DNA of 64,000 nt from Mesostigma viride (taxonomy: Eukaryota > Streptophyta > Mesostigmatophyceae > Mesostigmatales > Mesostigmataceae), in NCBI GenBank assembly GCA_009746045.1, contig RPFO01000003.1, forward strand, positions 2,123,792-2,187,791. Reading direction: 5' to 3'. The position numbers were made by a program, and so were the translations under genes. The notes below the pieces were generated by a model that saw only the letters and a list, made by a program, of their open reading frames with translations, was not told the DNA's origin and did no database searches. Every line of letters begins with the position of its first letter. The first letter of the stretch is position 1. Below, piece after piece: positions 13,501 through 59,300 of the stretch.

Positions 13501-16500
13501 GTAGCTACATGTACGCGAAGCCTTGCTGCGTTTACTGCAATTGCAGTTTACCTGCAATCCGTTTACCTGCAATCCGTTTACCTGCAATCCCAGCACGCCC
13601 GCTCCCACGTATTTGCAAAAGTCATACTTATCCCGCATGAACGCGCGTGCCTGTTGTGAAAGACTCCAGAGTAGACATTGTGAAATTGGAACCCGCGCAA
13701 ACAACATGGATCAGATCAGCATCATGAAACAGCCGTGAGATCGAACTGCAGCAGAGAGTTTACGAGGTCATTGGAATGCCCAGTCCTGCCCACCCACCCT
13801 CCCACCACGCATGAGAGCGCAAGCTCGTGCTAGCGCATAACATGGCTTGACAATCAGCTCGTTGGCCACTGGCAAGTGACTGGTTGGCGTGGCTCTGGTG
13901 GCACCGTTGGCACAAGTGGCACACTTGGTGCACTTGGCACACTTGGAAAAGAAAGGCGGAATCCAACCCCCCCCCCCCCCCTCTTAGAGGGGACTCCTTG
14001 CAGCGCGGTGGAGCCCAGCTTGCGGCGCGCGGGGAAGGCCACCAGGGCTAGCGGGGAAGGGGATGCGCAGCGAAGGAGGTGCACACTCAGGTTTGAGGGG
14101 TGGGGTGGGGTGGGGTGGACGTGGGGTGCTACTGGGGGTGCCCGTACGTGTGTGTGTGTGTGTCCACAGGTACTTGCCCCACGGATGTTTGCCCCACGAG
14201 GTGTGACCGAGAGAGGGGGTGGCCCAGCGTGTGTAGGGTTCATCGTGGCGTTTGACCAGTGAGATGCCTTCTATGGGACCCCGGCGGACAGGCGAGATGG
14301 CCATGAGCGGTCCGGGCGTGGTGGGAAATGCTCATTGGGAATGCACGAGGGGCCGTACAGCCATCGTACCGGTGTGGGAGTACAGGCAAGGGGGGTGCTT
14401 GGTCTCCACAGAATGCCCAGAGTGCCTGTGGGGTCCGCTAGCACCTCCACCAGCAAGCCACCACTTCCATGATCATCGTCAACCAGGCTGCCATTTCCCC
14501 GATCATCGGCCACAGGTTCAGCCCATCATCGGCCATCACCTCATTGATTAGCTATCCCATCACCTCATTGATTAGCTATCCCATCACCTCATTGATTAGC
14601 TATCCCATCACCTCATTGATTAGCTATCCCATCACCTCATTGATTAGCTATCCCATCACCTCATTGATTAGCTATCCCATCACCTCATTGATTAGCTATC
14701 CCATCACCTCATTGATTAGCTATCCCATCACCTCATTGATTAGCTATCCCATCACCTCATTGATTAGCTATCCCATCACCTCATTGATTAGCTATCCCAT
14801 CACCTCATTGATTAGCTATCCCATCACCTCATTGATTAGCTATCCCTGGATCAGCCCACCTTGTCGAGGCTTCCCGTGGGGTCCTCTGGCAGCCGCTTGA
14901 AGAGGTCCGGGTCAAAGCGCCCCAGCAGGACCAGCGTGGCCTCGATGAGCATCAGCGCCAGCACACAGACGATGTACTGCAGGGGACGGGGGTTGGACCG
15001 GTGGAGGAGGCATGATTGGGAGAGCAGGTGGTGGAAACATCAGTGATGAGGGCAGCAAATGAGAAGCAACGAAAAGAAAGCAATTACCGGCAAGTGACGT
15101 AAGGGTGCAAAGTACTGGAACGCTACTGCATTTCATGGTACATCGGTTAGACGTGACATATTGGAAGTGACTAACTAAGAGCAATCAATAACAAACCAAA
15201 ATTAATAAGGGACATTAGTAGATTTCCAGAAGAAGGGCAGCGTGCACTACCGAAACATGTAATCTGGCGGGGGCTGGGGGAGGTTGGGGCGGGGGAGGGC
15301 GTCTTGCATAGCTACCCTACGGCTTCACAGCCAGCGTTGGCACGGTATACTATAGCACGGTATACTATAGTATTTATAGACCGCTAAAGGGGCGGACAGG
15401 CACACGTCCCTCGTGGCCCAAAACAGGCCGTTTGACCTGCAAGGGGCCGGCGACCTGTTGGGGAAGACAACAGTACTTGATAGGGTGTAGGATTACATCC
15501 TATTTTCACATTGGACCATTTGGGCTGAGATTAGGTCCTTATCGAACAGTGGCGAAATGGGGGGGAGATACACAATAGTGAAACCAGTTTGGATGCGCAA
15601 GGCTCAAAGCATTATTTAAAGATACACGATACTATTTAAAGATACACGATAGTGAAACCAGTTTGGATGCGCAAGGCTCAAAGCATTATTTAAAAAATAA
15701 TGACGTTGTGAGGCCCCTGTGAGCATCGGGTGCCCACGCTAACCTGCGTGGCCACGTTACCTGCCAACAAAATGTGGCGGGGTGCACTTCAAACATCGGC
15801 ACGACTCCTAGTAGCGGTACGCCCGAGGTAGCTTGCTGACATTTTTCTGGAATGCATACCCGCTGTTCAACCAGCATGTGGTAAAGCACCCTACTTGTGA
15901 AACAGCCATGCGTACGGTACTCCGGGTCGCGTACCAGGGACAGGCCGAAGGCGCGTACGCCCCCTCCCCCTCGGGCGCAGGCGAGGCCTACTAAGCTGGT
16001 GAGGAGGATGAAGGTGCCCGTGCCGGCGGTGAGCATGACGGGCCTGCATCATGGGAGTGGAACAGCCAGCACGCACAGGATAATCCATGACAAACACACA
16101 CAGGATAATCCATGACAAGCACACACAATCATCATGACAGTTTCACGTCCAGCAAGCCAGCACACAACGTCATGACAGACGCACAGACACGACAACCCGC
16201 AACCGATGGGTTGCAAGAAATCAAGTTGGCATTCTTGCCATTGATCAACCAACATTAGGCGCTCCAACATTAGGCGCTCCTTTCCGTGTTTAACCGACCA
16301 AATTATGTTCAAGGCAAGGCCAAGGAGCACGGCCAAGAATGGCAGGAAGGGTAGAGGGCAAACCAAGTGAACAGCGTAGAAAAATCAATATTAATTAATG
16401 GAGAAGAATAGCATAAACAGCAAAAGATCCCTTCACTCCACAGTGCAAACATGTGATGCCAGTGTGTACCATGAGGAAATGGACGGAAATGCAATGCAAA

Positions 16501-17851: not shown

Positions 17852-20800
17852 ATGGCCCCTGACGCAACTTTTGAAATAGACGAACGCGTGGACGTTGAAG
17901 GACACCGTGCCACTGTGCGGTATGTCGGTGAGGTGGCTGGGCAAGATGGGGAATGGGTCGGCGTAGAATGGGATGATCCCGAGCGGGGTAAGAACGACGG
18001 ATCCACTGGAGGACAGCAATACTTTACATGCCGCAGCGGCAGCTCTAAAGGCGCCTCGTTCCTACGGCCGCACAAAATTACGCGTGGGACATGCCTGCTG
18101 GATGCCATCATTGCCCGATACGTCCCCACCGCGGGTCAAGCCACCAACTCGTCCGCTGCAGAGTCGGAAGACCTGACAAAAGGTAACGAAACTAATGACG
18201 CCTCTCCATGGTACGGTGCTGACTAAAAGGTTTTGCCGAGTGTCCTTTTCAGGTTGAGTCCTTGCCTGTCGTGGCAGGCAGCGCTCTATATCCCCCGGGT
18301 TTCCCAACGTGACGTAGACCCTCTCAGGAAGGTACCTGCACGATGTTTTCATCAAATCGAGGAGCAAGGCATCAGAAGCCCGCTTAAACTGAAACAAACC
18401 TTCTGCGTGCCTCGTGACTTTATGACGCTATCATGTTTTGCCTAGCTTTGCAGGAATGGGGGCGTACTAGGCGTCGCGAGGGCAACTAAAAAATTTTCAA
18501 TATTGAAACGTGTTGATGCAAAGTTTGTGCGCGTCATGCCGGCTAGCGCACGGTATCTGTCGAGGCAGCAGCGTCAGGGACTGGCCCACAGCCAGCAAGA
18601 ACATCAATTAGTGCGTGTGTGTGTCAATTTAATTAATCAGCAGTTACTGTTGGCTAACACTAGAAAGTGCATGGCCATCGCCCTGCATAGACAGCAGAGG
18701 CTGGAAGGCTCCGCAGGTTGGACATTAGGTGACGTAGTTGGTGCCAGAAGCATTGAAAATGTACCGGGGAGCATCAAACACCTTCCTTAAGCCGCATGCT
18801 CCTTACCTTTCCAACCGTATCTCTCAAGTGACCGGATTTCCTGCCTGCAAGCTGCTAGGGCCTGTGTCTTGCGCGTGCAAACAGCCACATGGCATCTGCG
18901 CAAGCGCCTGCCCTTGACTACTACAGTTTTGTTAGCCGAGGCAGCCGTGTGACATGACCGCAGATGCACGGTGTGCGCTCATTGTGTGGGCCGCCACGTG
19001 CTTGTTCCTACATGGGACGCCGCACGTATGGCTTGGGGGCAACGCTCGAAGCCATGCGTAGTGCTTGCGCTGGCGGATTCTGCCCCGCAAGCGTAGCACG
19101 CGCAAATATCCACTCCCTGGGATGGCCTGCCTACAAGCACCGCACCTAGGTTGCACCCATTATGCCCCCCACTGGCAGCATGCTGGCTTATCAGCCCTCA
19201 GCAGTATTTGTCACAGTATCAGGTACAGTATCTGGTACAGTATCTGGCACAGTATCTGGTACAGTATCTGGAACAGTATTTGGTACAGTATCTGGAACAG
19301 TATCTGGAACAGTATCTGGAACAGTATCTGGAACAGTATCTGGAACAGTATCTGGTACAGTATCTGGAACAGTATCTGGAACAGTATCTGGAACAGTATC
19401 TGGAACAAGACTACCAGTACCTTGGTGGTATTCCTGACCGCAGAGGTAAACATGATGCAGAACGATGGCCGCGTAAGTACGGGCTTTTTTGTACGCCCCT
19501 TTTCCTCGGTTCTATCCCTGGCAGATATGTGTGTGGTGATGACATGCCGGATGTGTGTGGTGTGATATTGCCGTGTAATTCCCGCGTTCACCCTTTGCCT
19601 TCGTAACCGTCGGAGATGTATTTGTCGATGATGAGTTGGCATGGTTATCGACGCTTGTATAGTAACCCTGTAGAGTAAACACAAACCTATGTTTACTTGT
19701 ATCACCCACAGAAGTAGACATGCTGCGTTGGTAACCTGCAACACAGTGCACTTGATAAAATAGACTCGTCTGTGCATGTCAAACTGCAGAGATGCTCGTA
19801 ATGATAAGTGATGACTTCGCACGGTGATTGGTACTTTGCAAGACCAACTCTTGCTGGTCTCTCCCATCACCCGCAGAAATGTGCGTGATGGTCATGGTGA
19901 CTCAGCTCGGTTGTTGGTACTATTGCATGTGACCTCCCACTTGCTTGCTTCTGCCACCTGCAGAGATGTACGTGATGACGGCCCGCCGCAACCAAGTCCC
20001 CGTCCAGCTGGTTGGCGCGGACAAGATCAGCGGCCAGCAGAGCAAGCTGGGGGAACTGGCGCAGGTCAGCCTGGTGGACGCATTGGTGACGCGTGCGACA
20101 GCAGGAGTGGGCGACACGGCTCTGGGCGACACCATGACAAGCAAGTGACATGCCGACACCTTGACCCTTGACCCTTGACCCTTGACCCTTGACCCTTTAC
20201 CCTTTACCCTTTACCCTTTACCCTTTTCCCTTTTCCCTTTACCCTTCATCCTTCACCCTTCACTCTTTACCCTTTTCCCTTTACCCTTCACACTTCACCC
20301 TTCACCCTTTACCCTTTTCCCTTTACCCTTCACCCTTCACCCTTCACCCTTTACCCTTTACCCTTTACCCTTTACCCTTCACACTTCACACTTCACACTT
20401 CACACTTCACACTTCACACTTCACACTTCACCCTTCACCCTTCACACTTCACACTTCACACTTCACACTTCACACTTCACCCTTCACACTTCACCCTTCA
20501 CACTTCACACTTCACACTTTACACTTTACACTTTACACTTTACCCTTTACCCTTTACCCTTCACCCTTCACCCTTCACCCTTCACCCTTCACCCTTTACC
20601 CTTTACCCTTTACCCTTTACCCTTTACCCTTCACCCTTTACCCTTCACCCTTCACCCTTTACCCTTTACCCTTTACCCTTTACCCTTTACCCTTTACCCT
20701 TCACCCTTCACCCTTTACCCTTCACCCTTTACCCTTCACCCTTCACCCTTTACCCTTTACCCTTTACCCTTTACCCTTCACCCTTCACCCTTCACCCTTT

Positions 20801-23800
20801 ACCCTTCACCCTTCACCCTTTACCCTTTACCCTTTACCCTTCACCCTTCACCCTTTACCCTTCACCCTTTACCCTTTACCCTTTACCCTTTACCCTTTAC
20901 CCTTTACCCTTTACCCTTTACCCTTTACCCTTTACCCTTTACCCTTTACCCTTTACCCTTTACCCTTCACCCTTTACCCTTTACCCTTCACCCTTCACCC
21001 TTTACCCTTTACCCTTCACCCTTCACCCTTCACCCTTTACCCTTTACCCTTTACCCTTTACCCTTTACCCTTCACCCTTTACCCTTCACCCTTTACCCTT
21101 TACCCTTTACCCTTTGCCCTATACCCTTAACCCTTCACCCTTTACCCTTTACCCTTTTCCCTTTTCCCTTTACCCTTTACCCTTTACCCTTTACCCTTTA
21201 CCCTTTACCCTTTACCCTTTACCCTTTACCCTTTACCCTTTACCCTTTACCCTTTACCCTTTACCCTTTACCCTTCACCCTTTACCCTTCACCCTTCACC
21301 CTTTACCCTTTACCCTTCACCCTTCACCCTTCACCCTTTACCCTTTACCCTTTACCCTTTACCCTTTACCCTTCACCCTTTACCCTTCACCCTTTACCCT
21401 TTACCCTTTACCCTTTGCCCTATACCCTTAACCCTTCACCCTTTACCCTTTACCCTTTTCCCTTTTCCCTTTACCCTTTACCCTTTACCCTTCACCCTTT
21501 ACCCTTTACCCTTTACCCTTTACCCTTTGCCCTTTACCCTTTGCCCTTTACCCTTTACCCTTTACCCTTTACACTTTACCCTTTACCCTTTACCCTTTAC
21601 CCTTCACCCTTCACCCTTTACCCTTTACCCTTTACCGTTTGCCCTATACCCTTAACCCTTCACCCTTTACCCTTTACCCTTTTCCCTTTTCCCTTTACCC
21701 TTTACCCTTTACCCTTTACCCTTTACCCTTTACCCTTTACCCTTTACCCTTCACCCTTCACCCTTCACCCTTTACCCTTCACCCTTCACCCTTCACCCTT
21801 CACCCTTTACCCTTTACCCTTCACACTTCACACTTCACACTTCACCCTTTACCCTTTACCCTTCACCCTTCACCCTTCACCCTTTACCCTTTACCCTTTA
21901 CCCTTTACCCTTTACCCTTCACCCTTTACCCTTCACCCTTTACCCTTTACCCTTTACCCTTTGCCCTATACCCTTAACCCTTCACCCTTTACCCTTTACC
22001 CTTTTCCCTTTTCCCTTTACCCTTTACCCTTTACCCTTCACCCTTTACCCTTTACCCTTTACCCTTTACCCTTTACCCTTTACCCTTTACCCTTTACCCT
22101 TTTCCCTTTAGCCTTTACCCTTTACCCTTTACCCTTTACCCTTTACCCTTTACCCTTTACCCTTTACCCTTTACCCTTTACCCTTTACCCTTTACCCTTT
22201 ACCCTTTACCCTTTACCCTTTACCCTTTACCCTTTACCCTTTACCCTTCACCCTTCACCCTTCACCCTTTACCCTTTACCCTTTACCCTTTACCCTTTAC
22301 CCTTGACCCTTGACCCTTGACCCTTGACCCTTTACCCTTTACCCTTCACCCTTCACCCTTTACCCTTTACCCTTCACCCTTCACCCTTCACCCTTCACCC
22401 TTCACCCTTCACCCTTCACCCTTCACCCTTCACCCTTCACCCTTCACCCTTCACCCTTCACCCTTCACCCTTCACCCTTCACCCTTCACCCTTCACCCTT
22501 CACCCTTCACCCTTCACCCTTCACCCTTCACCCTTCACCCTTCACCCTTCACCCTTCACCCTTCACCCTTCACCCTTCACCCTTCACCCTTCACCCTTCA
22601 CCCTTCACCCTTCACCCTTCACCCTTCACCCTTCACCCTTCACCCTTCACCCTTCACCCTTCACCCTTCACCCTTCACCCTTCACCCTTCACCCTTCACC
22701 CTTCACCCTTCACCCTTCACCCTTCACCCTTCACCCTTCACCCTTCACCCTTCACCCTTCACCCTTCACCCTTCACCCTTCACCCTTCACCCTTCACCCT
22801 TCACCCTTCACCCTTCACCCTTCACCCTTCACCCTTCACCCTTCACCCTTCACCCTTCACCCTTCACCCTTCACCCTTGAGCCTTCACACTTCACACTTC
22901 ACACTTCACACTTCACACTTCACACTTCACACTTCACACTTCACACTTCACACTTCACACTTCACACTTCACACTTCACACTTCACACTTCACACTTCAC
23001 ACTTCACACTTCACACTTCACACTTCACACTTCACACTTCACACTTCACACTTCACACTTCACACTTCACACTTCACACTTCACACTTCACACTTCACAC
23101 TTTACACTTCACACTTCACACTTACACACTTGACACTTCACACTTTACACTTTATATTTCTCCCTTTACCCTTTACCCTTTACCCTTTTACCTTTACCCT
23201 TCACTAGCATGACAAGCACGTGGCCTAGAGGCTGAACTACGGCCTCGCAAGGCAACCCCCTGTTGTGAAAATGTTGAAATGTGGCTGCTATCCAATGCCT
23301 CCATTATCACCATGACAAGCAAGCAGCAAAATGGCTGATGTGTGACTGTTAGTCACATCTCATTTTTCCCCATGACAACCAAGTGGCCTAGGAGCTGGTT
23401 GTGGCCATTATCAATGGCCCCTGCGATGATTCCTTTACGGCCATGACAAGCAAGTGGCACTGCTCACCTACCCTCTTATCCATCACCCTTTGCAATGATT
23501 GTTCCGGGTGATAAGGAAGGTGTTGGCCATGGACAAGCAAGTGGCACTGCTCACCTACCCTCTTATCCACCACCCTTCGCAATGATTGTTCAGGGTGATC
23601 AGGGAGGTGTTGGCAATGGACAAGCAAGTGGCCTAGGCAAGCACACCCCATTCCCTAACATACCATTCCCTCACATAAGGATGACACGCACGTGGCCTAG
23701 GAACTAATTTTTCCTGTTATTAAAAGCCTGTATATTATCTGGATGACACGCAATTGGCCCACACACCCTTTACCCTTACCTCTTTATCACCATCACAAGC

Positions 23801-26800
23801 AGCTAGTTGGTTTCGGCCAAATGTTCCAATCAGTTGTAGGCACTGTTACGGTTGCCCTTTGTTTGATGGCAGGCAGGCGGCTTACGCACCCTGCACCCCC
23901 CACTCTTTGCTCTTTACCACCATGACAAGCGTGTTACAGTCCTACCAACACCTCCTCACCGTTCTCGCCACCTTGGGGGAAAATGTGGGCCAAGTGCCGC
24001 CTTGTGAGGGTTCTTGTAAATGCAGAGTAGAAGGAATTGCCTGTCCTCCGATGGGGGTGGGGTGACAGGAATAAGACTTTGAACATCTCTTTGCCATGTA
24101 ACAATCTATCCAGGAGTCAGTTCCCATAACTTTATTTCGCTGCCACTCCTTGGCGTAATGGCCAGTGCTGGGCTGAAGCTGGACTATTTTTGAAATAGGC
24201 TGTTGTAGGGTTATGCCATTGACTAGTAAAGCACGCCCTGTACCCCCTTCCAACGTTCCTGTCTGGGCCTCTCCTCGGCACTTTACTTTGCACGCTGGTC
24301 CTGTTTACGTTTGCAAAAGAAAACAGAACCACAGAAAGCCGCGGGGCCCACGGCGGCTGCAGTGTCATCTCGGCTGCTACCCCGCTCTTACCAACCCGCG
24401 CTCCTCTGTTTATCCGGGGCTGCGGTCCTTTCTGCTCTGTTATGTTCTTTACGTGCTCAGGCCTAGAGGAGCTCCAGCTGCCAGGGAGCCTGATAGGGAC
24501 GTGGAAGGTGGGTCAGCCATCTGGTTGCGCTCCGGGACAGCATGGCCATGCTTGCACGCATCTCTGCATACCATCCGGAATGAGTCCTTGACTAGATTGC
24601 AGTCTTGTCACTTAGTAATTGACTTGCTTGCACTCATCTCTGTATACCATCTGGTATGAGTCCTTGAGTCGATTGAAGTCTTGTCACCAGCGACATGCCG
24701 TAATCGTTTGTGGATCTGTTTGGTCTCGTGGCGACAGCATTTGCATATTTTGTGAGGGAACAGCTGTTGTTGTGCGTGGGTGCTTCTCATGCCTTGCATG
24801 TTTGATGTTTGCTGCGGCGGACCTTGAGAAAACGACAAGTTCTCCTAGGACATTGTCTAGGAAAGGTTTCTCGGGAAGTTCTCTGTAGGGAAGTTCTCTA
24901 CGAGTACTTGGTAATGCTATTGTCTGTTTGGAGCATTTGAGCGTGTCTACCACAGCAAGTTTCCTCCCTTTTGCAGGAGTATATCGAGATCTGCTGCCTT
25001 CTAGTCTAGTTGCAGATGATCCCTATGCATTTTCTTTGTTACGGAGTTGACTGTTGAGAGCTCAAGCTTTCATACCTAAGCCCCCATGCGGCACGTTGGG
25101 CTTCTTGTGTTGTTGGGAAGTGTGCTCTGCTGAGCAAATGCCATCCCTTCCATCTTCCTTGCCTTTGGTAGTACTAAGAATCAGCTCACGATTCATGGCA
25201 TATCACTAAAATTTAGTAACCAGAAAAGTTTAGCAGTAATAAAAGTTCAGTCGTAAAGTTTAGTTGTAGGGGTAGCAGTAGTATTAAAAGTTTAGAAGCA
25301 GTCAGTTGCATGAAAATGGAATACACTTTTTTCATCATTCCTTCAATCGTGTATTTCCCATCCTAGCTTACCATCCCTGCTGTGGCCACCCTTCTTGCTG
25401 TTCACCGTCACGATGCCAACGATCCGACACCTTGCGGTGCAGGAGGTGAGCGAGCTGGCCCGCCAGCTGGCGCGCCTGCGCGCTCTCAACCTGAGCCGCT
25501 GCCGCTTCTCGTGGGCGCCCCCGTTCCCCTGCTCGTCGTCGTTGCGGCTGCTAGTGCTCAACAACTGCCAGCTGACGTGGACACAGGTGAGGGGATGTGA
25601 ATGTCGCCGTGGGTCGGCTGTGGCCTCAGTTTGGTAGTGGGTGCAGTATGCCCCCCCCCCCCCCCCGCCCCAAGGGCATTAACTGCGTATCAGCATCAAT
25701 TGTTCTACTGACTGCCGCCACAGGTCCAGCTCCCGTATGCCACCCACCCACCCACCGGTCATCCCCATGGCACCATATGCTTGCCTATTCTCTATCTTCC
25801 ACTGACTGCCGCCACAGGTCCAGCTCCCACATGCCACCCACCCACCCACCGGCCACCACCATGGCACCATATGCTTGCCTGTTCTCTATCTTCCACTGAC
25901 TGCCGCCACAGGTCCAGCTCCCACATGCCACCCACCCACCCACCGGTCACCACCATGGCACCATATGCTTGCCTGTTCTCTATCTTCCACTGACTGCCGC
26001 CACAGGTCCAGCTCCCACATGCCACCCACCCACCCACCGGTCACCACCATGGCACCATATGCTTGCCTATTCTCTATCTTCCACTGACTGCCGCCACAGG
26101 TCCAGCAGCTGGAGCCTGGCCTGCCTCACCTGGAGGAGCTGCACTTGTGCGGCAACGGGATTCGGCAGCTCCATGTGGAGGTGCGGACGTGATGGATACC
26201 GTTTTGAGTGCAAATGTGGCGCATTAGGTGGCTTTATGCACATTTTATTTCTTTTATGGAGTTTTTTTTTGTTGCACGCCTGGCGTATTGTGCGGTTCCC
26301 CTGTCGGTTGTATCTCGCTCGCAATTAGGAAATCATTTTACTGATGTGCCGTAGCCATGATTTGCTATTTTAGCTAATAGTTAACTTGTGTTTGCACGGC
26401 ATGCGCATGCATTATACGGCACGCTCAAGTGCATGCGACGCTTGCTGTGGTTCCTCGACCCTCTTCCGTTTCCCTCTGCGCCGCGCTGGGTTCTCCTTCT
26501 TCAGCGGGACGGACAGCCCGCCTGCAGGGTGTCAGGGTGGGACTCCCTGCTCCAGCTCACGCTGGACGACAACGAGGTGGACGACTGGGAGCAGGTCATG
26601 ACGCTGTCGCACCTCACAAGGTGAGAAAGTGCTAAAGCTGTCGCACCTCACAAGGTGAGAAAGTGCTAAAGCTGTCGCACCTCAAGAGGTGAGAAAGTGC
26701 TGAAGCTGTCGCACCTCAAAAGGTGGGCAAGGGATAAAGCTGCCGCACCTCAAACGGTGGGCAAGGGATAAAGCTGTCGCGCCTCAAGAGGTAAGAAAGT

Positions 26801-29800
26801 TATATTGCAGTCGCACCTGATGAGGCGGGATGCTTGACGAGGGAGCAAATGGAGGTGGAGTGGGTAGGGCCTGGCATGCCTCCATCATCTACCCTGTAGT
26901 ACCTGACGGCCGCTGTGCGTTGGCACCTATTGGACGTGCATTGGCCAAATAAAATCTTGGTTGTGCACTTATTGGACGTGCGTTGGCAAAATCTTTAGGT
27001 CTGCAGAGGGGGAGGGCCTGCCTCAGCTGTCTGATTCCGTTTGTCCAGGCTCATGTTGCATGCCTCTATTGAATAAGCTACAATGCTGCATGGCACATGT
27101 TGCTCTGCTGGATCGGCTGCATGGAAATACAGTGCACTGAAAGCAAGAATGCCCCGACTCGATTCTTCACTTTAGGCTCCCCTGAATCTGTTTCTGATTC
27201 CTCATTCACTTCATTATGTTGGCTGACAGCTCTGCCAACCACCATGTGTTCCCCGACTTTGTCGTTGGTTGGCTGCATCGCCTCTGATGGCCACGGGCCT
27301 CTGGCCTATCGGTCATCGCCCCCCAGGCTGGAACGGCTGCACTTGAATGGCAACAAGCTGACGCACGTGCGCTATCCACTCGCAGACCATAGGGGGCCTG
27401 GTGAAGGTGCAGGAGACGCAAGCGGGCGACCTGATGGGGATGCTGTGAGCTCGGCTCCTTTTGCGTCGCTCCGCTCGCTGTTGCTGGGTAAGGCTCCAAC
27501 GGTTGGCGTCAGTTATCTAGGCGCTCTGCTCTATCTCATTGCTCTGCATCTCGTGACCGAGTTGCATCGAACTAATAAGGAGTTATTTTTTTATTTCTCA
27601 GTGCGGTGGGTACTGTATTCTGTTCCAAATAAATGATGAGCCCTTTGTTTCCCCAAAGGACGCACAGTTGAATCACACACTCGTGCATTCAAGTATGAGC
27701 GAACGTGCAACCAGATAACAAATGCACGCAATCACAGGTTTGTTACCTTTGCTGAAGTAAACCGGGATCGCTGGAATAGAGGACGTAGAATACATGTAGG
27801 ATGCAAGGTGTGGTAGTAGACATAATGACATAGTGAGAGTGCATGAGATGGCCAGATGGGGGGGAGGGGGGCAGGAAGGGCACATCAGGACATGGAGCCC
27901 TCATTTTGGACATGGACAAGCCTACATTTCTTAAATACCAATGGAATCCATTTCTAGATCTTTGATTCCTCACTTCTCTGTCCATATTTCCTTTTCTCAG
28001 TTTTTCTCATATTTTTCCTCTCTATTTTTACGCTCAGTTTTTGGAATCACTGGTCAGTCGTTGCGCAGCCCTTTGTACGGACTGGACTGTAGCCCTGATG
28101 GCAGTGATTGATGTTGCCATCCAGCGCCTCCCTCTCACAACCCCTCACATTCTGGCCCCTTCCACTTTCTCCCATGGTGCGCGTCACACGTGCAGGCAGA
28201 AACTTGATATCAGACTGGGCGTCGGTGGATGCCCTGGATTCCTTTCCGAGCCTGGAGGTGCGTACGTGCCTCGGCGCTTCTCGTCTTCGCCTCCTCTTGC
28301 CTCCCCTCCCCCTGCCTCGATTTATTGCGAAAACCCCCTTCTACTAGTATTTGGGGGGGTTGGGGGGGGGAGCTTGTGGGCTGTGTTGGCTGGTTGCATA
28401 TGATCCTGTGCCCAAGCGATCAGGGAGATACACTGCTGATTGTTCTTTCCATCTCCTCTCTGACCCTCTATCTCCTCTAGTTTGATTCTTTTTACTGGCT
28501 TCATGTAAAGTCTACGCATTTTACTCGTAAGCACGTTTGCATTACAACTACAACCATCCTTGCAACATAACTCGCAAGCCAAGTTGCCCACCTGCTTTCC
28601 CCAAAAGCACTTGACAGGGTCGCATGGTAATTACGGTCCCGGTGCGGACATGTTTACGTCGAAAAAAATCGCGCCATTATACCGATGGTACCTCCGGAGT
28701 TGGAACCAAAAGTTGGGTGTCCACTTGTCATGCACGGACCCCCATCACTGAGATCCCCAAGTGGGACTACTTTTGCCCCACATGTGAGGAGGGGGGCGCT
28801 GTGATAGTGCTGATGAATGAGCTTGCCATGCATCTCCTCAAGTACGGTCTGGTGGCCAATGGCCAAATGTTTCTTCTTCCACGTTTGTAGTCAGAATGAG
28901 CTCAACTTTTAGGGCATTACTTGTCGATATGTGTAATAATTGGTTTTATCTCCCCGGGGCCCTACATCTGCGCTATTGATGTGATCTATTTTTGCAGCCT
29001 CAAAAAGTGTGGTTTTTAGGGGGGGATCAATTACATTGATAATGCTCATCAAGCCCGGGCTCCGATTTGGTAGGCAACTTCAGTTTATATGATAGTATAT
29101 GGAAATATATTGAAGCATGAGTAACCCCATGAGTTGCCCCCATTGCACTGGGTGATATGCCCCTAAAGTAAATCTTTTGTCCGTTTTTGCGTAATACCGG
29201 TCACTAAAAGGGGTATAAACCCCCCCTCTGTGGGTGGGATGGACCCCCACATATCCTATTTACATTTCCGAAATCATCCCCCGGGTAGCCCCAGGCCACC
29301 TTTGCATGTTATTGCATAGTAGTATATAGGTTAGGGGTCCTGGCATGGCACCTTCACCTTAACCCCTGAGAAGGCTTTCTCACCACCTGAGGGAGACCCG
29401 GCCAAAACCTGGGCTCAGCCCCTGAGAAAACCATGCCCTCCCTGCTTATTGGCAGGGGGTGGGGATATGTCCAACCCCCAGCTTCGTCACCCCATACCCG
29501 GCAGTCTGCCATGTGTAACCCCTTGATTAACTGGCTACTAGGCTATTGAACCAGGGTGGAAATAGGCTCCGCCTGGGGTGGTCCCAACGCAAAAAAGCCC
29601 CATTACGAGGTGGTGACGGGGCCCTGCCAGACATCGACACCCGGCTGGTTTCCCCCTTCAAATTTTGATAGGGTATTCGGCCAGGAAAAAAGATATCTAC
29701 AGATAGTGAGTATATTCTAGCATATCCAAAATACTCCCTAGTAACTAGGGGCCTAGGATACTATATACCCCCCTGGTCCTGAGCCCGCCAGGTTCCTCCT

Positions 29801-38772: not shown

Positions 38773-38789
38773 TCTTGTGCGGCGCAGCC

Positions 38790-39260: not shown

Positions 39261-39646
39261 TGGGCGTATAAACCCTCAAGGGTAGCCAGAAACAGGCAAT
39301 GATCCTCTTATGTCAGCATACAGCACAATCCATTCCTCTGCCTACCAGCATGTCTGTCACCTGGTTTTAGAACCATCTACACCTTTAACTTCTGGGCAGG
39401 ATCTTATAGGGATCGACAACAACTCGGACCCTTAGGTCCTTCCGTCACTGCGAATTCCGGCCACGAGGTAGCCATGGCTGTCGGGGCTCATAACTTTCAC
39501 GTTTGAGCACCGAATTTAGCCGTGAATATCACAATCGCTTCGTCTTTCTAAGACGCACATGCTGATATAATTTTCCGACGCTATTACGCAATATATGGCG
39601 AATAAACGCGCCTCGACGCAACGCAGCCTGGCGGCTGCGCTCGGCA

Positions 39647-40926
39647 ATGAAAAATACGTCTGCAGCTCAGGCTGCAGCTCCGCCATCAGGTCCGGCAGGC
39701 AGCGGCGACACTAGTCGTGCACTGGTGGTCGTCCAGCAACCTCCCGGGCTTAACGCCTCGCCATCTGCATCGCCTGACCCCAAGCGCACCCGCTCAGCCG
39801 ACAAAACAGGAGGGTCTTCACGCCCCGGCCTTTCCAGGTCGATGATTACGACTGGGACAACATGCCTCCGTCCGATGCTATGGACTGCATCTTCTACGGG
39901 GACTACGCTTCGCTTTACGACCTGTGCCTCCATCTCCACGACACCGATCGCCTCCTCACCCCGAACGGCATCCGCTGGGTTAACATCCACATGCTTTTCG
40001 GGACCACCCGCCCCCAACTCCAGCACGCCATCCTCAACTCCCTTCTCAAGCGCTCCGACGGCGAGATCTGGGCTCCATCCATCTCCGCCCCCACACTCCG
40101 TTCCATCCTGACGGAAGCCTTTCAGCAGCACGTGACCCCCCTTGCTGCCGACATTTCAGCAATCGGCGGCACGCTGACTGCTGAACTTCCTCACATTTCC
40201 ACCGCCGCCGCCTCCACCTCCACCGCCGTTTCCGCCTTCACTGCCGACATCAAAGCCCAGCTCCTCGACCTCGACCAACGCCTTCAAGCCACCGCCACCG
40301 CCCTTGAGAGCTTGCATGACACCGCCGGCCTCACCGCCCAAGCGGTGCAGGAAATCGCTGCCCAGCCGGCACCTGCTGGCCCGGCCAGTGATGTTCCCTC
40401 CACCTGGGCGGACTTGCTTAAGCATCACACCACCTCCACCACCTCCACCATCGCGGCACAACTCAAGCAACAAGCCCTCGACCTTCGCGAGGCGGCCGAG
40501 CTCGACAAGCGCAGCCACAATGTCATCGTCAAGCACTTCGACCAGCCGGCAGGTGAGACCTCCACGAGTCTCCTTGAGGCAGTTAAGCGCGCCATTCTTG
40601 CCCCCATGTTACTCACTGGTGAGCTGGACATGTCGGTTGTCCGCCTCCCCCGCGCGCGGGGGAAGGCTGGCCCGGCACCCGTGCTCCTCACCTTTAAGTA
40701 CATGACGGACAAGCTGGCGTTCCTTAAATGCCGCAAGAAGCTCTCGGAGACTCGCTTCACGCTGGACGACGACTTGACCTTGGCCCAGCAACAGCGGCGA
40801 CGCGAGCTATGGCCGACCTACCTTCAGCTCCGGCAGCGTGCAGGGGGGAAGCCGGTATACTGGAGGGGGGCGGTCATCCACGTTGACCACAAGCCCTGGC
40901 AGGCCCCTCCTGCCACTCCAGGCTAG
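39647..40926 (+). CDS. LINE ORF1p-like protein (frameshifted at the 5' end)
   Basis: The main frame, 39862-40926, encodes 354 residues. Residues about 95-200 are alanine/threonine-rich and helical (probable coiled coil). NVIVKHFDQP then begins an RRM-like region with PVLLTFKYMTDK and LAFLKCRKKL. The C-terminal part (DDDLTLAQQQRRRELWPTYL, YWRGAVIHVD) resembles the C-terminal RNA-binding domain of L1-type ORF1p. An ATG at 39647 opens a second frame whose first ~70 residues (Pro/Ser-rich, with PKRTRSADK) probably belong to the same protein; a +1/-1 shift near 39840-39860 separates them. Related decayed sequence lies at 7960-9275. No reverse transcriptase follows, so this LINE is incomplete. Confidence 0.7.
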
Positions 40927-41755: not shown

Positions 41756-41822
<67 letters not shown>

Positions 41823-45530: not shown

Positions 45531-45542
45531 GTGCGGGTGCGC

Positions 45543-47833: not shown

Positions 47834-48401
47834 CCTGCCCCACGCGTGTTCGTTGGCCTAAGTGGGTATATGGCAGCGGGAAAAGGGAGTGGTCCCGCTG
47901 GGGTTCAATATTACTACTTGCTGGGCCTTGTTGAGCTTCTCCAAGAGGATCGTAGTCTGTAGAGCCGGGGTGGGTGACAGTGCAGCCTCCTCCCCCAGTG
48001 GCAGGAGGTGGCTTCACTGGCTTACTACCTTCCACTCCCCCCTCCCTGCCCCTCCACCTGCATGCAGCAAGGCCGCCACCGCCCTCATTAGGTATTCCGT
48101 GCCCACAAGTTCCCCGCGGCTACTGAGCCTCTCGCGGAGCTCCTCGCGAAAAGTGTCCATGGCCAATTGAATGTTCATGACAACTTTCCTGTTCTCCATG
48201 TTTCGCCAATTTCCAGGCTTGATTGTCATGACCCACGACCGGATACCCATCCCATTGGCGCTGGCGTCCTCCACATGCACTCCCGGCAGCACCCGGTACG
48301 AAATCCGATATTTCACGCTCTTGACTCGGCTTGGCACCAGCACCCCTTTCGAGGCGTTGAATGGGCTTCCCGCCCCTCCATTCCTCCCAGCAGTTGAGCC
48401 C

Positions 48402-50313: not shown

Positions 50314-53300
50314 TCACGTTGATGATTCCTTTACACTGTCAGTCACTAATACGTGTACAGAATAATTCTGATCAGTGACGCGGGAAAAGAAGATAGAAGA
50401 TAGCCTTGTGCAAGACCACTGCATACTGAATGCCGCACGTTCCATTCTCATTTCGTTCCCATCAGCACTGACACATGCAATACAATCAATCAGGCTTGAC
50501 ACCCACCTGAACAATGTGGTCGGTCGCCCCGCTGAAGAGTACCCCGTCATCGCAGGACGCGAGGGAAGTGACGGCGCCAGAATGGCCGGTCATAACCGCC
50601 ACGCGCTTGCATGTCACCACCTGCCAAACCTGCGGCGTGCGTGCGCATGCATGGTAATAGCCAAGGTGACAAGTAACAGGTACTCAGTAGCCGGCTTGCT
50701 GAGCCGGAAACGGAGGACATGCTGCATGAGCGCTGCTGGAGCCTATGGTGGGCCCGTACCCGCTATACCCGAACACGGACGCCCGAAGATGAACAAGCAC
50801 CGGTGGCCTAGACCGATACCTTATAGTACCGGTAGTTGGCTTCAGTCTCATTGGGAAGATACGAACATACTCGGGTGTTCGGTACATCGTATTTGGTACC
50901 GGTACCACAGGTTCGACCCATGACCTTGTCCACACCTGCACGTCCTTGCCGCTTGCCCTCACCTGCATGTCCTTGCCGCTTGCCCTCACCTGCACGTCCT
51001 TGCCGCTTGCCCTCACCTGCACGTCCTTGCCTCTTGTCCCCACATGCACGTCCTTGCCGCTTGCCCTGACCTGCGCATCCTTGCCCCTTGTCCTCACCTG
51101 CACGTCCTTGCCTCTTGTCCCCACCTGCACGTCCTTGCCTCTTGTCCACACCTGCACGTCCTTGCTGCTTGCCCTCACCTGCACGTCCTTGCTGCTTGTC
51201 CTCACCTGCATGTCCTTGCCGCTTGCCCTCACCTGCACGTCCTTGCCGCTTGCCCTCACCTGCACGTCCTTGCCGCTTGCCCTCACCTGCGCATCCTTGC
51301 CCTTGTCCTCACCTGCACGTCCTTGCCTCTTGTCCCCACCTGCACGTCCTTGCCGCTTGCCCTCACCTGCACATCCTTGCCTCTTGTCCACACCTGCATG
51401 TCCTTGCCGCTTCATTGTCCCCACCTGCACGTCCTTGCCTCTTGTCCCCACCTGGAGGTCCTTGCCACTTGTCCTCATGCACCAGCATGTCCTCGTCCGT
51501 CGCCTGGGACAGGGCGCCGTCATGCCATGTCTTGTTCAAACTCAATCCTGACCCAATCAGATATAGTAACGATTTACTTGCTTTGCAAGCATTACCCTAA
51601 CCCACCCATCATGGTACATTATCGTTCTCACCTGGATTTCCATGCCCTATGATTAACCCCATGCTCACCTGGATGTCCTTGTCTGTAGCCTGGTAGAGAA
51701 AGCCGTCGGCCACCACCACCGCGGCCGTGGGAGATGCCTCCTCGCTCTCAAAACGCGCAACGATGTCATGGGTCTTCATGTCCCATGCCTGTCAGTCCAT
51801 CTCAGAAAGGTTTTACAATTTTTACGATGAAACAGGGATGGACCGTTTTAGGCAAACCAGCGCAGACATGCGTCATCATCAACTCAGCAGAAAGAAACTC
51901 TTCCTAGCACAGAACGGTGGTCGCATCGACAGACTCAATCCTGTTAGGCAGGTATGTGCACACATCCAAAGTAGTTGCCATAGCTACAAGCTCACCACAA
52001 AAACGCCTTCAACACGGGTAATTTAAGGGCTAATTACTTATAAGCAAATGAAAGCACTTACTGTTGATTCAAGCCAGCTTTATTTCACACGAATACAGCT
52101 GATAAGGGACTATTGCAAAACTTGGCTTGTGAATGTGAAAGAGACAGGACAGCACGCTGGCGCTTACTTGCTTACATTGTTTTCCATGACACAAAAGGCG
52201 ATAAACATGTACAAGGTATCTAATCATGTTAATGACATGTAAGACAGGTAACTATATTGGGACAGGTGGGCGCTATTCATTACCGTTGGGGCAGGTGGGC
52301 ACTACTCCGGTCACCATTGGAGCAGGTCGTCGTCATTCATTTCTGTTAAGGCAGGTGGGCTTTCAAATGACACAGCCACCACTACAGTTTTGGGAGGCAG
52401 CACCTGAATTGCAGCTTGCTTGCATGCACCTTTAGATCAATGCTCGCTCGCTACGCGGCTTGGTCAGCTAGATCCACACGCGAGCTGAACGACTTTCCAA
52501 CATACCTGCAGAGAGGAAATGCCTGCAACAAATCCTGCTGTTCCGCCCCCCCAATAACTCTGCAACCACCTGCATGCATAGAATGCATTGAGCACCACTG
52601 CTATTCACGCACACACCTGGACCATCCCCAAAGCTAAGTAGTGGCGCGAGTATGCTATGTCTACGCCATTCCCCCATCGGCCCTGCACGACCTACGTACC
52701 TAAGGCCCACGCAAGCATGCACCATCGGTTCAAAATTTTTGGAGCCACTGGCACACACATTGACACACTGACATCCTCCCCCCGACAGTTGCTGCACCAT
52801 TGTACAGTAGTATAATAATAACAGCATCGTATAGTAGCGTATTAATAATAGTATCATATAGTAGTATAATAATACTAGTATCGCACAGTAGTATAAAAAA
52901 ACTATACTACTACATGATTAGATACTCGCGCCTGCACCATCCTCTGTACGCTTAATTGCTGTATTTCGCTGGTATACAGCGTCCAACCTGCCCACCGCCA
53001 CCATCCCTGATAGAGTTCGTAACAAAGGCACACCCATGATTGGTTGACCAGCATCATCCTCGATGCTGTTGCGATAGGCATGGCACACCCACATCTGGAC
53101 CATTCAGGACTTCTCGTAAACCGTGTGAGCTTGTATACGGCAATACGGCAATACGCCAAAACCTCGGCGTATTGCGTATTTGGTATACCACGGCGCATAA
53201 TACGGAGTACTAGCTCATACTGCTCGTAAATAAACCCACAGGCACCATCCCCACTTGTACTGTCCCTATATGAGCCCACCTGCACTGTCCGAACTGTTTG

Positions 53301-56300
53301 GTATTCAGAGTTTACGAAGGGTACACTACCGCACATGGCCCACCTGCACCATCCCCGAGCTCCCCGCCGCGAACAGCCAGCGTCCGTCCCTCGCCAGCGC
53401 GCTCACGTGGGCCCCCTTGAAGACGAGCGTGGCCAGTTGCGAGTGGCTGCGCGCGCACCAGATCTGTCATGCAACATTGAAGGATCGATCACCATGCAGG
53501 GTGGCCGGTGGATGCAACGAAGGATCACCATGGGTGTGTGGGGAGGTGCAAGGGGAGGATCGACATGGACCTGTTGTACAAGGAGGAATGACCATGGATG
53601 CAAGGTGCATGACATTGAGCTATTAATTAATGACGATGAGCTGGCCAGGTGAGAGCGGCTGTGCGCGCACCATGGACCTGTCAGAGCAACCTTGTGTGAA
53701 GGGCGCGGAAAGTAGCAGCAGCCATTTAGCATTTGTTCGACTAAGGAATTTGCCATTCGTCGTAGTAGAAGCCAATTATCACGACAACTATGATGGGTCT
53801 TTCTCATTAGACTTATGCCATAGTACAAGCAACACGGAGTAATTAATTAATTAATTAAACGCGTGCTCCCGTTGGGGAGTCACGGAGCACCGAAGTGCTT
53901 TTAATCCCTGTGTGTGCACAACAGGAGAAAGGGCAGAGACCCCCAGTCTCCTTCATGCCTAAGGCATGCCACCGCTGCACTCGGGCGCGCTAGCTAAACG
54001 GACACGCTAACGATCCGGCAATCTGTGGGTGCAATAAGACCCATGTGAGCATGGCATTACAAGGAGCGTGGGCGAGTAAACTGATCATAGCCAAGACGTA
54101 GCATGACTGTACAAGGACGCGGAGTAAGATCCAGTAGTTGCAGCGCATGACATGTCTATTTGTCCACTCCTCAACAGCTTGATGCTCCTGTGTTGCATGA
54201 CATGGCATGCGTGTGCGACAAGTACTTAGCATTTGCAAGAATCGATGGCACATTCAATGATTTGCTGAAGCTGCGCAATAATGAATACGTGGTTTGTCCA
54301 CAATTCAAGTAGCGGGACCCAAACATCTGCCAAAAGATCCGCGCATACCTTCACGCCGTGTACGAATCCCGTGTAGATGACCCCGTCTCCCGCCAGCAAT
54401 GCCTGGCCACCCGCCAACCGCTCGCCCAGCGTCGCCACGTGGCGATAACTCGTGCAGTCCCACACCTGCGGGGAATCAACCCATTTCGGTTCTCAACGGT
54501 GTCAGGTGAAATCTCAACTGTGCCCACTAACTTTCAACCTTCCTAGCACGGCACATATGCGAGAACTCGAAATGCTGACAAGACAAATAGCTACGCGAAC
54601 CTGCGTGAGAAATAGCGTGACAAACCCAAACGCGACCCGAAACATGTCGAATACAACTTGGACCTGCATGCAGCACGTCCACTACCTAGAAGTCGAAGGA
54701 GCGATGCGATGGCTGATGCCAGGCGATGGGACATGCCATGCCGGTCTTAAGGTACATGCCATGCCGGTCTTAAGATACATGCCATGCCGGTCTTAAGATA
54801 CATGCCATGCCGGTCTTAAGATACATGCCATGCCGGTCTTAAGATACATGCCATGCCGGTCTTAAGATACATGCCATGCCGGTCTCAAGGTACATGCCAT
54901 GCCGGTCTTAAGGTGCATGCATCAGGGGAAGCGACGCACCCGGGAAATGTGTGCGTCAAAGGATAGCCACAACCTGCAGGTTTAATTAATCAGAATGCCA
55001 GCATAGCTAGCTAACGAGGAAAAGAATGCATGCTACCATCCGGCTCCGCCAGGCCTGGGTGTGCTGAAGTGCCATTTTTACCCCCCTACCCTCAAAGTCT
55101 GTGTTCGAGCATAACCCAAAGCAATGGCATGACGTTGGCACGCATGCTTATCACAGTCAATGCCCCCTGTGAAAAAACACATCAATAGATCCACCCTGGT
55201 AGATGAAAGCCGTATATATCGACTCTCTCAGCCATGACAGGCACAAAGTGACCCACCTCCAGGGCGTCCCTGGTCGCCACAAACAGCCGGTCCCCGTACA
55301 CGGCCAGCCCGAGGATGGGCACGCACTGGTTGCCGACAGAGGGCAGCGTGGTCAGGAGCCGCTGCTTGTCTGCGTCCCACACCTGCACATGTGGGGTATG
55401 GTAGCATTTGCTATTTTATCAGGCGATGTGTGTGACAGGAAATTGTTGTTTTTGCTTGTCTGCATCCCGCACTTGCACGCATGCGGTGTGAAAGAAGTGG
55501 TTATTTATTGGTCGCGTGATTAGACTGAAGGCCTTAACACAAAGCCGCTCTGTTTTTCCGCATCCCACAGTGACTGCACGGGTGTCATGTGATTGCGTTT
55601 GGTATTTTATAATAAGGAAAGTTATGCCTTACGTGACAGAAAATTATTGAAAGGCTGCTTAACAGTATGACGATACTGCAAATCCGCGTTCGAGACCTGC
55701 AAATTTTGAGCCGAGAGACAACCGGTTGATCATTTGATTAAGCACAATGTAAAAACATCAGAACTGCAATAACTGCCACAGGTTGCTGGGCACCTGCGCG
55801 TGGCGCGTGACAGCAACAACGAATTGATTACAAGGCCGCACGAAAGGGTTCATCATGATGTCAGACATGATGTCACGCAAGATTGCATGACAAGAAAATG
55901 AGTTGGCAACGGGCTCAAAACCAATCAATCGGGTTTGCCTTGCACATGTGAAAGTTGTCTCACAGCATCGTTTGAATTCAACGTGAACAGGCGGAGAAGC
56001 ACGGTCTCGACGAGAGCAGTCCGTGCCGGACACCAGGTTCAATGACCTGCAGACGTGATCTGCGCGTGCATCCGGTCATGAGCGCCCTAAGCTTACTATC
56101 CATGGATAAAGCTGAAGGTGATGAACAGTGCCCGCAGTACCAGCTTGGGCGCTGCACATAGCTAGCAGCGCAAGCCATGCATGTGTGGGCAAGATGGGAA
56201 ACCATACATTGTTAACTAGCAGCAATACATAGCGGCCGCAGTACTAGCTGGGGCACTGCAGATAGCAGCGCAAGCCATGTGTGGGCAAGTCATAGGGAGC

Positions 56301-59300
56301 CACATATGGTTCCATGTGGGGGAAAACACGAGCTAGAGAGCCGGCGCTGGCAAACCCGTGCGGTATCAAAACATGTATATTTTGCTATTGCACGAAACCC
56401 AGGCGACATTGCATGTGCAGCACGAACTCCCCCGGTGTGCGCGTCTGCGTGCGTGTGTTCGTGCGTGCGTACGTGCCTGTGCGCGTATGTGTGTATGTGT
56501 GTTTGTCTGTGTGTTTGTCTGTGTGTGCGCGCGTGTGTGTGATTGTGTGTGTGCATGCGTGTGTGCGTGTGTGCATGTGTGTGCGTGCGTGAGAGAGAAC
56601 AAGAGGCTAGACGGAGAGAGCCAGAGAGAGAGTGTGTGTGTGCGTGTGCGCGCGTGTCTAGTACCAGCACGGTATACCAAAGCAGCGAGGTACCAGGGTC
56701 TAGGCAACCCAGCACAAAAGCACAGCTGGCAGGAATTTGCGCTGCCTATAATCAACCCCTGGTATGGCTAAAAATACGGGCAGAGATTAAGATGCAGATA
56801 TTAAGAAGTGCAGGCCACACATTCTACTCCTGCCCGCCTGCTATTCTCGATTAACTCTTCGATACCTACCTGTGTGCTTCTGCTACAACCCATACGTGAA
56901 GCAATGTACAGAAAAGCCAGGGGAATATGTTGGAAATGCAGAACCCACAAACCAATTACTGTATCCAAATGCACAACGAGCACAGTGACCGACGCTCCTC
57001 TAGAATTGCCAAAACATGTTAGTGATGTTACCCTTTAGGATGGTGTGGCAATTCTATTATAATCCTATATCTATACTACTATTAATTTAAATAGAAATGT
57101 ATTACAATCATATCTATATTATTACCCATGTTACCCGTTGGGATGGTGCGGGCGGTAAGCCGCCCACAAATCACTGCCAACAGTCCACCATAGCAACAGT
57201 CCCATGCACCTGGCAGCAGAGGCCCGGGCACACAAGGGCACTTTTTCACTTGCTGTGCAAGGAATTTTAGCCATTAACTAAAACATCGTCCTGGCACATG
57301 TACTTGCCAACACAAACACCGCCAGCACACATGTACTTGCCACACAAGGGCTAGTAATCCTGTACCGAGTGCAACGCCTGATCCGCCGAACATCCCCTCA
57401 TGCGCAGCACGCTGAAGAGACCAACACAGCTATGTATATATAAACACAACTACTCAAGGCCGCGGCAGACCTGAATGCTGCCGCAGTGGTTTCCAACATA
57501 CAGCTGGGATTATAGTGATGTCATCATAGCAATCATAGCATCCATGCATAGGACCAACGCGGCGGACCTGGGTTGCTGCCATAGCGCATGAACTGCCGTA
57601 CAGCCACACGAGCATCCATGCGCCCAACTACAGCTTACCTGAATACTGCCGTAGAAGTTCCCCACGTACAGCCGCCCACCCCCCAGGGCGAGCGCCTGCG
57701 CCCAGTAGCGGCTGTTGAGGGTGGCCAGCTGGCGGTGGCCCGACTCGAGGCTGTGCACCTGTGCGCAGTCCACACAACCCCGACAGAGAAGTTGCATCCG
57801 TTAGAACGAGAATCAGATTGTGCAGCAGAAACTAGCAATGCCGGGTTCACATCACCCTTGAGCACAGTAATTAGTAACTACACAACGGGTTTAGGCTAGC
57901 GGTGCCATATTCATTATTAAAGCTCAAGGACACTCGGATAGCATATATATTTATATTTTAAGCCAAAATAGCAGTTGCTGCTGGAGAGCAATGAGGAACA
58001 CACGCGAGGGGAAGCAAAACAAATCAAAAAAAGAAATTTTAAGCGGTTAAGTAAAGCGGTTAAGTAAAACTTAAAAACAAAAAAGAAGAGAAAACTTGAT
58101 AATCATGGTGTCAATTCTAAATACTCTTGATTTCAAAAGCCTCTTGTGCCCACAACCCATAGCAAACTAGTTAAACTCCCTCACCTGCACGTACCGTCCC
58201 GATTCCCAAGACCCCTTAAAAATTACTCGAGCCCCACATCCTGAACAACCACACCCACCCCTAACTACTCGCTGGGTATACTTTTGCACTTACCCGCGCT
58301 GGGTGTATCTATCAATGCATGAGACAACCTGTGGGGCTATTTATGCGCACTTACCCGCACGTAGCCGTCCCATGACACGCTGTACAGGCGTCCCTTCTCC
58401 AGCGCGAGCCCCGTGACGCGGTCCTGGTGGCGACGCAGCGTGGCGACGGGCATTGGCACGGTGCACGCACGGAACCACTGCGGCCACAAGCAGTGGCGGC
58501 CAATCGAGCAGCTATGAGTTGACCCAAAACGAGGGAAGCCAAGTGGCCGCAAACATACAGCAGCGCACCGCACACACAACAGCGCATGCACCAAGGTGTA
58601 CAACCGCAAACAACCAATGTGTCCATAAGCAGTGGGCCCCATAGCGTGCGCGAGCGGGAACCATGAAGCCGTGCCCACGAGCGGTGAATGGACCCAAGCA
58701 GCCACAGCCAAGGGCACAAAGCGTCAGGAACAAATAGGCAAAGCCAGTAGACCGACCGTGTCCACCGCTAGGGAACCAACAGGCCACAGCTAGTAGACCA
58801 ACCGTGTCCACCCCATACACAGCACCCCTCCTTGCTCACCTGCAACTCCGCCGCCTGCACCCTGGCACCCTGGCGTGCCCCCCTCAGCTCCCCCTCCAGC
58901 TCCCCCACCCTCCCCCTTAGTCGCCTCTCCTCCTCCTCCCTCTTCCCCACCTCCTCCTTAACCTCCTCCACCGCCCGGAGCGCCTCCCTCCGCCACTCCG
59001 CCTCCTCCACCAGCTCGCCGCGCATCCCCGCCAGCTCCGCGTCCCTCTCTTGCAACTCTGCGCGCGCCGCCGCCACCTGTCCCTCCAGCGCCTGCAGCTC
59101 CTCGAATCGCAGCGCCGCCCTCGTGAGGGACGCCTGAAGCTTCTCCTGCAAGTCGTGCAGCTGCGATTCTTGCGCGCGCAACAGCACGCCGTACCCTGCC
59201 GCCTGCGTCTCCAGGTCCTCTGCCCGCCGCTGCGCCGTCGCGCGCCACTGGTCGCTGATCTGGCACTGCGCCAGCAAGGTGGCCTGCTCGGTCACTGTGG

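Follow-up and report, generated by a model that had tools for sequence, protein, structure and literature searches.

Introns at a Mesostigma viride locus carry recurrent direct copies of their own splice junctions

The 64,000-nucleotide stretch of Mesostigma viride DNA analysed here, hereafter the window (C1691:2123792-2187791, within a 440-Mb assembly of 2243 contigs), contains three genes in which a number of introns hold direct copies of their own donor or acceptor junctions. The gene content of the window has a green-algal appearance. The three genes, modelled without reference to repeats, are TBCE (plus strand), a WD40 gene (minus strand) and a TOM2A-like gene. TBCE was identified by a match to Tubulin-specific chaperone E in PDB (E 1.2e-45) and by CAP_GLY and LRR domains in Pfam, and the WD40 gene matched PF00400 above the cut-off, with other beta-propeller families falling under theirs. 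The TOM2A-like gene gave no Pfam match, and its name is tentative, following the label in the initial annotation. Exons W2 to W8 of the WD40 gene (window 50507-58477) each correspond to approximately one WD repeat, are all in phase 0, and for the most part have AG|GTG at either end. The boundary strings of the 43 modelled junctions were each unique, occurring once. A codon model trained on the other genes was applied to 19 exons, all from TBCE and the WD40 gene, and ranked the chosen frame highest in every one. A blind exon finder trained on the same genes recovered 14 of the 23 model exons exactly, plus TBCE exon 8; it does not amount to gene annotation, calling 42 exons in the window, including part of a 27-bp array. 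Two details of the TBCE model should be noted: the donor of exon 2 is either GC-AG (last base 20140) or a GT 5 nt further, and one exon after exon 7 was not found.

Each junction was represented by a probe of 30 nt of exon and 12 nt of intron (42 nt), which was aligned to the remainder of that junction's intron and compared with a null of 300 equal-length, non-cognate segments elsewhere in the window. Our alignments revealed an own-intron copy at p <= 0.01 for 14 of the 43 junctions (23 donors and 20 acceptors), against an expectation of 0.4, and at least one copy spanning the junction at 15 of the 43. Donor 20140, kept out of the former count by the intron-length limit, reached p 0.001 with the full intron. 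All 14 sets proposed in the initial annotation were found to copy their own junction, 13 of them at p <= 0.01 and the set of acceptor 34404 at p 0.013, and two further cases were added, namely the donor at 58355 and, close to acceptor 27327, a copy of the exon start. When the probe was slid across the boundaries, the match rate of donors was 10/23 at the boundary and 0/23 from 35 nt exon-inward, and that of acceptors peaked at 7/20 and reached 0/20 from 40 nt exon-inward; inside introns, donor probes matched at rates of 14-32% (from +15) and acceptor probes at 5-20% (from +10). No junction copy was seen in 8 of the 19 complete introns of the window. Across these 19 introns, junction copies span 4347 of 21131 bases (20.6%), a share that does not show junction copying to be a dominant mode of intron growth. 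Arrays called by Tandem Repeats Finder (TRF) cover 5799 bases (27.4%) of the same introns and overlap the span of the junction copies, with a single CCTTTAC array accounting for more than half of the TRF-covered bases. This array (window 20159-23201, about 435 copies) starts 18 nt past the TBCE exon 2 donor and fills most of TBCE intron 2.

The copies are direct and lie on the intron side of the junction that they copy. Among 30 window junctions, direct copies on the own-intron side were found at 12, compared with two wrong-side and three inverted matches, and all five of the latter scored 22-23, the detection limit. Probes matched their own intron rather than non-cognate segments or the wrong-side intron, revealing no sequence family common to the introns, as the initial annotation had claimed in describing unrelated sets without a shared element. 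Self-similarity was also frequent in the background: of 1081 random 42-mers from the same introns, 301 had a direct copy and 44 an inverted one. Relative to random positions in the same intron, copies at 17 of the 43 window junctions exceeded both the same-side expectation of 7.6 (p 1.2e-4) and the either-side expectation of 11.0 (p 0.019), the latter being the fairer figure because the partner of a duplicated interior position can lie to its left or to its right. Masking every TRF array dropped three junctions lying inside arrays; of the remaining 40 junctions, 13 retained a copy, against 2.7 expected on the same side (p 5e-6) and 5.0 on either side (p 2e-4).

The sets range from overt arrays to faint and scattered copies (Table 1). 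Donors 13582, 26620 and 51669 and acceptor 26100 lie in head-to-tail TRF arrays of the minisatellite kind, and whole-unit tandem arrays carry the junction at these four sites and also in a chaperonin gene described below (L024); most of the diverged sets have no TRF entry. In the set of the TBCE exon 2 acceptor the copies step by about 87 bp, a period that scored best of 81 tried, and their cores match at 16-18 of 24 positions at five of the six 87-bp steps. Three copies of the exon 2 donor core (23208, 23370 and 23619) continue into the first bases of exon 3. Similarity extended well past the core in two diverged sets, covering 56 of 87 nt at 75% in T1-T2 and 84 of 104 nt at 76% in W3-W4. This range, from perfect repeats such as the 48-bp steps in L024 to barely visible copies, is in line with the initial annotation and suggests continuing turnover. 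We also considered a conveyor belt, in which the newest copies would lie closest to the exon, and rejected it on finding rho inconsistent between sets (exon 6 donor -0.9, exon 2 acceptor -0.79, W6 +0.95, W7 -0.05, exon 2 donor -0.34).

Table 1. Sets of junction copies in the window (window coordinates)
Feature	Position	Strand	Remarks
15-bp array over TOM2A-like donor 13582; copies 13567, 13552	13529..13590	-	TRF; p 0.0033
TBCE exon 2 acceptor 19964 and five earlier copies (19877, 19790, 19614, 19525, 19444)	19444..19964	+	p 0.0033
TBCE exon 2 end and donor (20140 if GC-AG; GT 5 nt further)	20131..20147	+	donor type uncertain
Eight copies of TBCE exon 2 donor core	23208..23940	+	p 0.001
94-bp array (4.3 copies) bearing TBCE exon 5 acceptor 26100	25703..26106	+	TRF; p 0.0033
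34-bp array (6.4 copies) over TBCE exon 6 donor 26620	26603..26818	+	TRF; p 0.0033
Copy of TBCE exon 7 start (acceptor 27327), without AG	27107..27121	+	p 0.0033; placed by eye; distance 220
TBCE exon 8 donor 32187 and copy 32286	32160..32292	+	p 0.0033
TBCE exon 9 acceptor 34404, copy 34339, fainter upstream copies	34177..34404	+	p 0.013
TBCE exon 10 donor 35091, copy 35141, fainter downstream copies	35077..35400	+	p 0.0066
TBCE exon 11 donor 35974, copies 36093, 36202, fainter 36289, 36487	35940..36490	+	p 0.0033
WD40 exon W7 donor 51669, copy 51632, 27-bp donor-copy array 51483-50936	50925..51682	-	TRF; 19 spanning copies
WD40 exon W6 donor 53344, spanning copies 53280, 53240, 52996, 52617	52617..53357	-	p 0.0033
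WD40 exon W6 acceptor 53463 and copy 53677	53434..53690	-	p 0.0033
WD40 exon W4 acceptor 55382, copy 55472, fainter 55574, 55695	55362..55695	-	p 0.0033
WD40 exon W3 donor 57639; copy of its exon end at 57471	57471..57673	-	p 0.0033
WD40 exon W2 donor 58355, copies 58294, 58185; absent from the initial annotation	58185..58372	-	p 0.0066

Junction copying extends beyond this window, recurring not only in its unrelated genes, as initially described, but also on other contigs. In 200 kb of adjoining sequence, where the blind finder was restricted to strong short exons (23 testable exons, score 24), acceptors gave seven own-side, one wrong-side and no inverted copies, and donors showed no excess (two own-side, three wrong-side and one inverted in the 23 exons). 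Four of the seven acceptors belong to same-strand exons in one place (L007), scoring 41, 45, 32 and 37 with wrong-side scores of 14-16, and the remaining three lie in exons that also scored on the wrong side. Chaperonin (PF00118) genes, located by exon matches, provided a sample picked independently of the feature. Nine such places were fetched, and omitting L028, the likely second haplotype of L027, left eight genes. Their exon chains were assembled from domain matches, frame and splice scores, so that errors at individual boundaries are possible. A rule removed exons with weak support, and two more predictions (L024 4151-4445 and L027 4952-5363) were taken out manually, the former on account of a translation that was plainly an array; its removal adds one positive, donor L024:4061. 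In the eight genes, own-side copies were present at 17 of 88 junctions, with one wrong-side and one inverted match (sign test 1.4e-4), comprising 13 of 43 donors and 4 of 45 acceptors, and seven of the eight genes had at least one copy. At L024 4061-4361, a 48-bp array repeats a chaperonin donor junction unchanged across the 42 probed bases. The proteasome family yielded 11 matches, mostly in a single piece, and was left out as a second replicate.

The comparison with intron interiors delimits what is particular to junctions. With only simple repeats masked, the 17 chaperonin copies were not in significant excess over the either-side expectation of 13.8 (p 0.17), the same-side expectation being 9.0 (p 0.002), and overt arrays were no commoner at chaperonin junctions than in intron interiors. 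With all arrays masked, 12 of 79 junctions retained a copy against 5.5 expected on either side (p 0.0035), revealing an approximately twofold enrichment of diverged copies. When the window and the chaperonin genes were pooled, 24 diverged copies were observed against 9.0 expected, and the same 24 compared with 18, twice the expectation, gave P 0.10. The excess over random intronic positions that the initial annotation anticipated was upheld in the window and for diverged chaperonin copies, and was not significant in the either-side comparison for chaperonin junctions with only simple repeats masked. The latter result led us to reject a junction-specific hot spot as the main explanation. The junction-specific process originally proposed is not supported, the enrichment at chaperonin junctions being limited to a roughly twofold excess of diverged copies.

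The explanation that we favour, with moderate confidence, is a general process of short tandem duplication that is tolerated at junctions since splicing at the outermost site would restore the mRNA. It takes as its observed basis the copies themselves, their orientation and side, their recurrence in the assembly and their roughly twofold persistence. In-place duplication of short DNA segments, some 15 bp to a few hundred in length, would be frequent in this genome, presumably through break repair or slippage; duplications within exons would be removed by selection, and those within introns would be retained. A duplicated stretch straddling a splice boundary would create two splice sites, and if the outermost one were used (the first donor or the last acceptor), the old mRNA would be kept. 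Such an event would be nearly neutral, lengthening the intron and leaving a junction copy inside it, and repeated events could build arrays. The exon copy of such a pair would be held by selection and hardly change, so that a junction pair would drift half as fast as a wholly intronic pair and remain recognisable about twice as long, leading to a twofold enrichment. The twofold excess of diverged copies corresponds to this conserved-partner prediction, and the mutational process is thus taken to be general short tandem duplication. The junction, on our best reading, is the one place where duplication can take in coding sequence harmlessly. Small tandem duplications have been described as arising from breaks at which single-strand breaks lie close together on the two opposite strands (PMC8355091), and such opposite-strand nicks would be a plausible source of the duplications here.

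Several observations weigh against this explanation. In all five sets tested, intronic copies resembled one another in the core more than shuffled sequence (z 2.8 to 10), and their flanks were at chance (z -1.2 to 1.1). A conserved exon master accounts for no more than a twofold difference in distance, which leaves the persistence of the cores over; the contrast between core and flank exceeds what a conserved exon partner explains and stands unexplained, even though it is inflated because the cores were found by likeness. Copies extended only a short way into the exon, by a median of 24 nt and past 45 nt in just 2 of 29. Of the spacing between copies, the exon contributed less than half in 22 of 23 cases, whereas breakpoints placed at random should give half on average. 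This short reach could stem from selection against exon-like copies of greater length or from the copying of short segments. Nearest-copy distances fell at 85-102 bp in 9 of 28 cases in the window and the L022-L030 introns, compared with 11% of interior lags at 84-106 bp (interior values that are not independent). Masking of arrays left 11 direct and 6 inverted intronic self-matches. At a strict threshold the enrichment in the window was more than twofold (11 versus 2.45 at score 26), a larger figure that is qualified by the choice of the window for the feature itself. A process in which exon-anchored segments are repeatedly copied into introns at a spacing of about 85-105 bp, their sites being kept as decoys or alternatives as the spacers drift, so that introns are grown and tuned thereby, is conceivable but unlikely in our estimation.

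Selection might also maintain the copies as functional splice sites, whether decoy, alternative or recursive, with conserved cores and drifting spacers, and the contrast between core and flank in the five sets, together with the 16-18 of 24 identities shown by acceptor copies at five of the six 87-bp multiples, would fit such a role. So would the strength of the donor copies: of the 24 with scores listed, 20 lie above the 99th percentile for random sequence, and 9 of 37 equal or beat the outer site (21 of 37 being within one bit of it; the score of one W3 copy is offset by one base). Such inner donors, often as strong as the outer one, predict that position decides usage or that mis-splicing is common. 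AG|GT is juxtaposed at many donor copies, as recursive splicing would use it. However, most copies of acceptor 19964 lack a GT after the AG, as do several acceptor copies in general, and some arrays advance by only 15-48 nt at a time, too little for stepwise splicing; a general function in recursive splicing, a role that the initial annotation raised for testing, is not supported. With many arrays young, a contrast inflated by the way in which the copies were found, and a chaperonin enrichment of at most about twofold, we regard maintenance by selection as improbable. Templated insertion, in which break repair copies short segments from nearby exon edges rather than whole tandem units, would account for short cores with unlike flanks and for the short exonic reach, but it is at odds with the whole-unit arrays, with the 87-bp register of one set, with the likeness that passes beyond the core in T1-T2 and W3-W4, and with copies that are direct and confined to their own side, and we judge it quite unlikely.

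The copies might instead be relics of intron birth by tandem duplication of an AG|GT-bearing exon segment, the model that the initial annotation invoked. In its favour, the three T2-T3 copies that continue into exon 3 give a score of 43 (shuffled P 0.001), and in W7-W8 the spliced probe scored 34 and the donor probe 31. The T2-T3 match was noticed post hoc, however, and 19 other exon starts score 32-40; elsewhere, apart from one tie-level case below threshold, spliced probes did not outscore both of their counterparts, donor and acceptor. Intron starts and the starts of the next exons were no more alike than shuffled pairs (p 0.78), and exon ends weakly resembled intron ends (p 0.044). A spliced-sequence match confined to one intron does not extend to a general origin, and we consider birth relics very unlikely. 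An artefact of assembly in repeats could be suspected from perfect arrays, such as that of 24 bp x 13.1 at 14533-14846 and the 48-bp steps in L024, yet most copies have diverged, each in its own way, and two contigs that are probably haplotypes, C1641 and C887, both hold copies of the one donor compared. We therefore find an artefact highly improbable. These contigs carry the same chaperonin gene (L027 and L028), which showed 76 mismatches and 15 indels over 3317 aligned bases, a mismatch rate of about 2%. Their indels are small and partly tandem. No junction event was caught between them in the one donor compared, whose copy set was identical in both, leaving unproven the suggestion that the process is active. 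Two matched exons lie 4082 bases apart on one of these contigs and 850 on the other.

Related phenomena have been reported. In the potato RdRp gene, a single tandem duplication across an intron-exon boundary gave rise to a new intron (PMC4974935); there, as here, the duplicated segment crosses the boundary and splicing signals are copied, whereas the present copies occur at many junctions, often in multiple copies and mostly without sign of a new intron. In fission yeast, intron gain was inferred within 24-nt tandem repeats, coding AGGC repeats in two orthologous genes (PMC3629103), which likewise yields introns of short tandem repeats, each with a possible splice site; in this window many introns are concerned, each with its own unit. 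The tandem genomic duplication model similarly duplicates AG|GT-bearing sequence, but it creates introns (PMC3443670), and here existing junctions multiply within introns. Introner elements of Amoebophrya have direct repeats at the intron ends, as here, but comprise family sequences with inverted repeats of 8-20 nt and direct repeats of 3-5 nt (PMC7789003) rather than copies of the intron's own junction. The ratchet points of recursive splicing (PMC8605326, PMC6110457) place AG and GT side by side inside introns, as do many of the donor copies; in contrast to such points, several copies here lack AG|GT, and some steps are very short. The overt arrays are ordinary tandem repeats of the intronic minisatellite kind, and it is the diverged sets that mostly escape TRF.

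In searches of the openly licensed PMC literature we encountered no account of arrays of several splice-junction copies occurring genome-wide. As far as that literature shows, what is new is the recurrence: roughly one in five to one in three of the junctions sampled carry copies, often several apiece. The lengthening of introns without harm to the gene is usually credited to transposons. With a visible local self-copy at about a fifth (chaperonin genes) to a third (window) of the sampled junctions, a neutral route, in which the boundary is duplicated and the outermost site would still be used, becomes measurable. In addition, natural arrays of near-identical competing sites offer a direct test of the choice made by the spliceosome between the first donor and the others, or the last acceptor and the others.

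Other repeats and elements were noted in the course of this analysis. A 161-nt inverted repeat, 88% complementary, lies at window 29859-30019 and 31204-31364 with 1184 nt between its arms; it flanks a coiled-coil-like open frame (29978-30718) inside a long TBCE intron, and repeat and frame together look like a mobile element. On three contigs of G000 (C1590, C667 and C2011), proteasome or chaperonin matches fell within one open frame, unlike the intron-rich genes, and these can be read as either intronless genes or foreign contigs in the assembly. No relatives were found among viral contigs, a set that may omit records close to the genome of the window. Two long plus-strand open frames at 8091-9209 and 39566-40926 have a common short motif near their ends and, by eye, look like related retroelement open reading frames. 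Near the end of the window, an ATG array (61844-63888) holds 682 copies at 99%.

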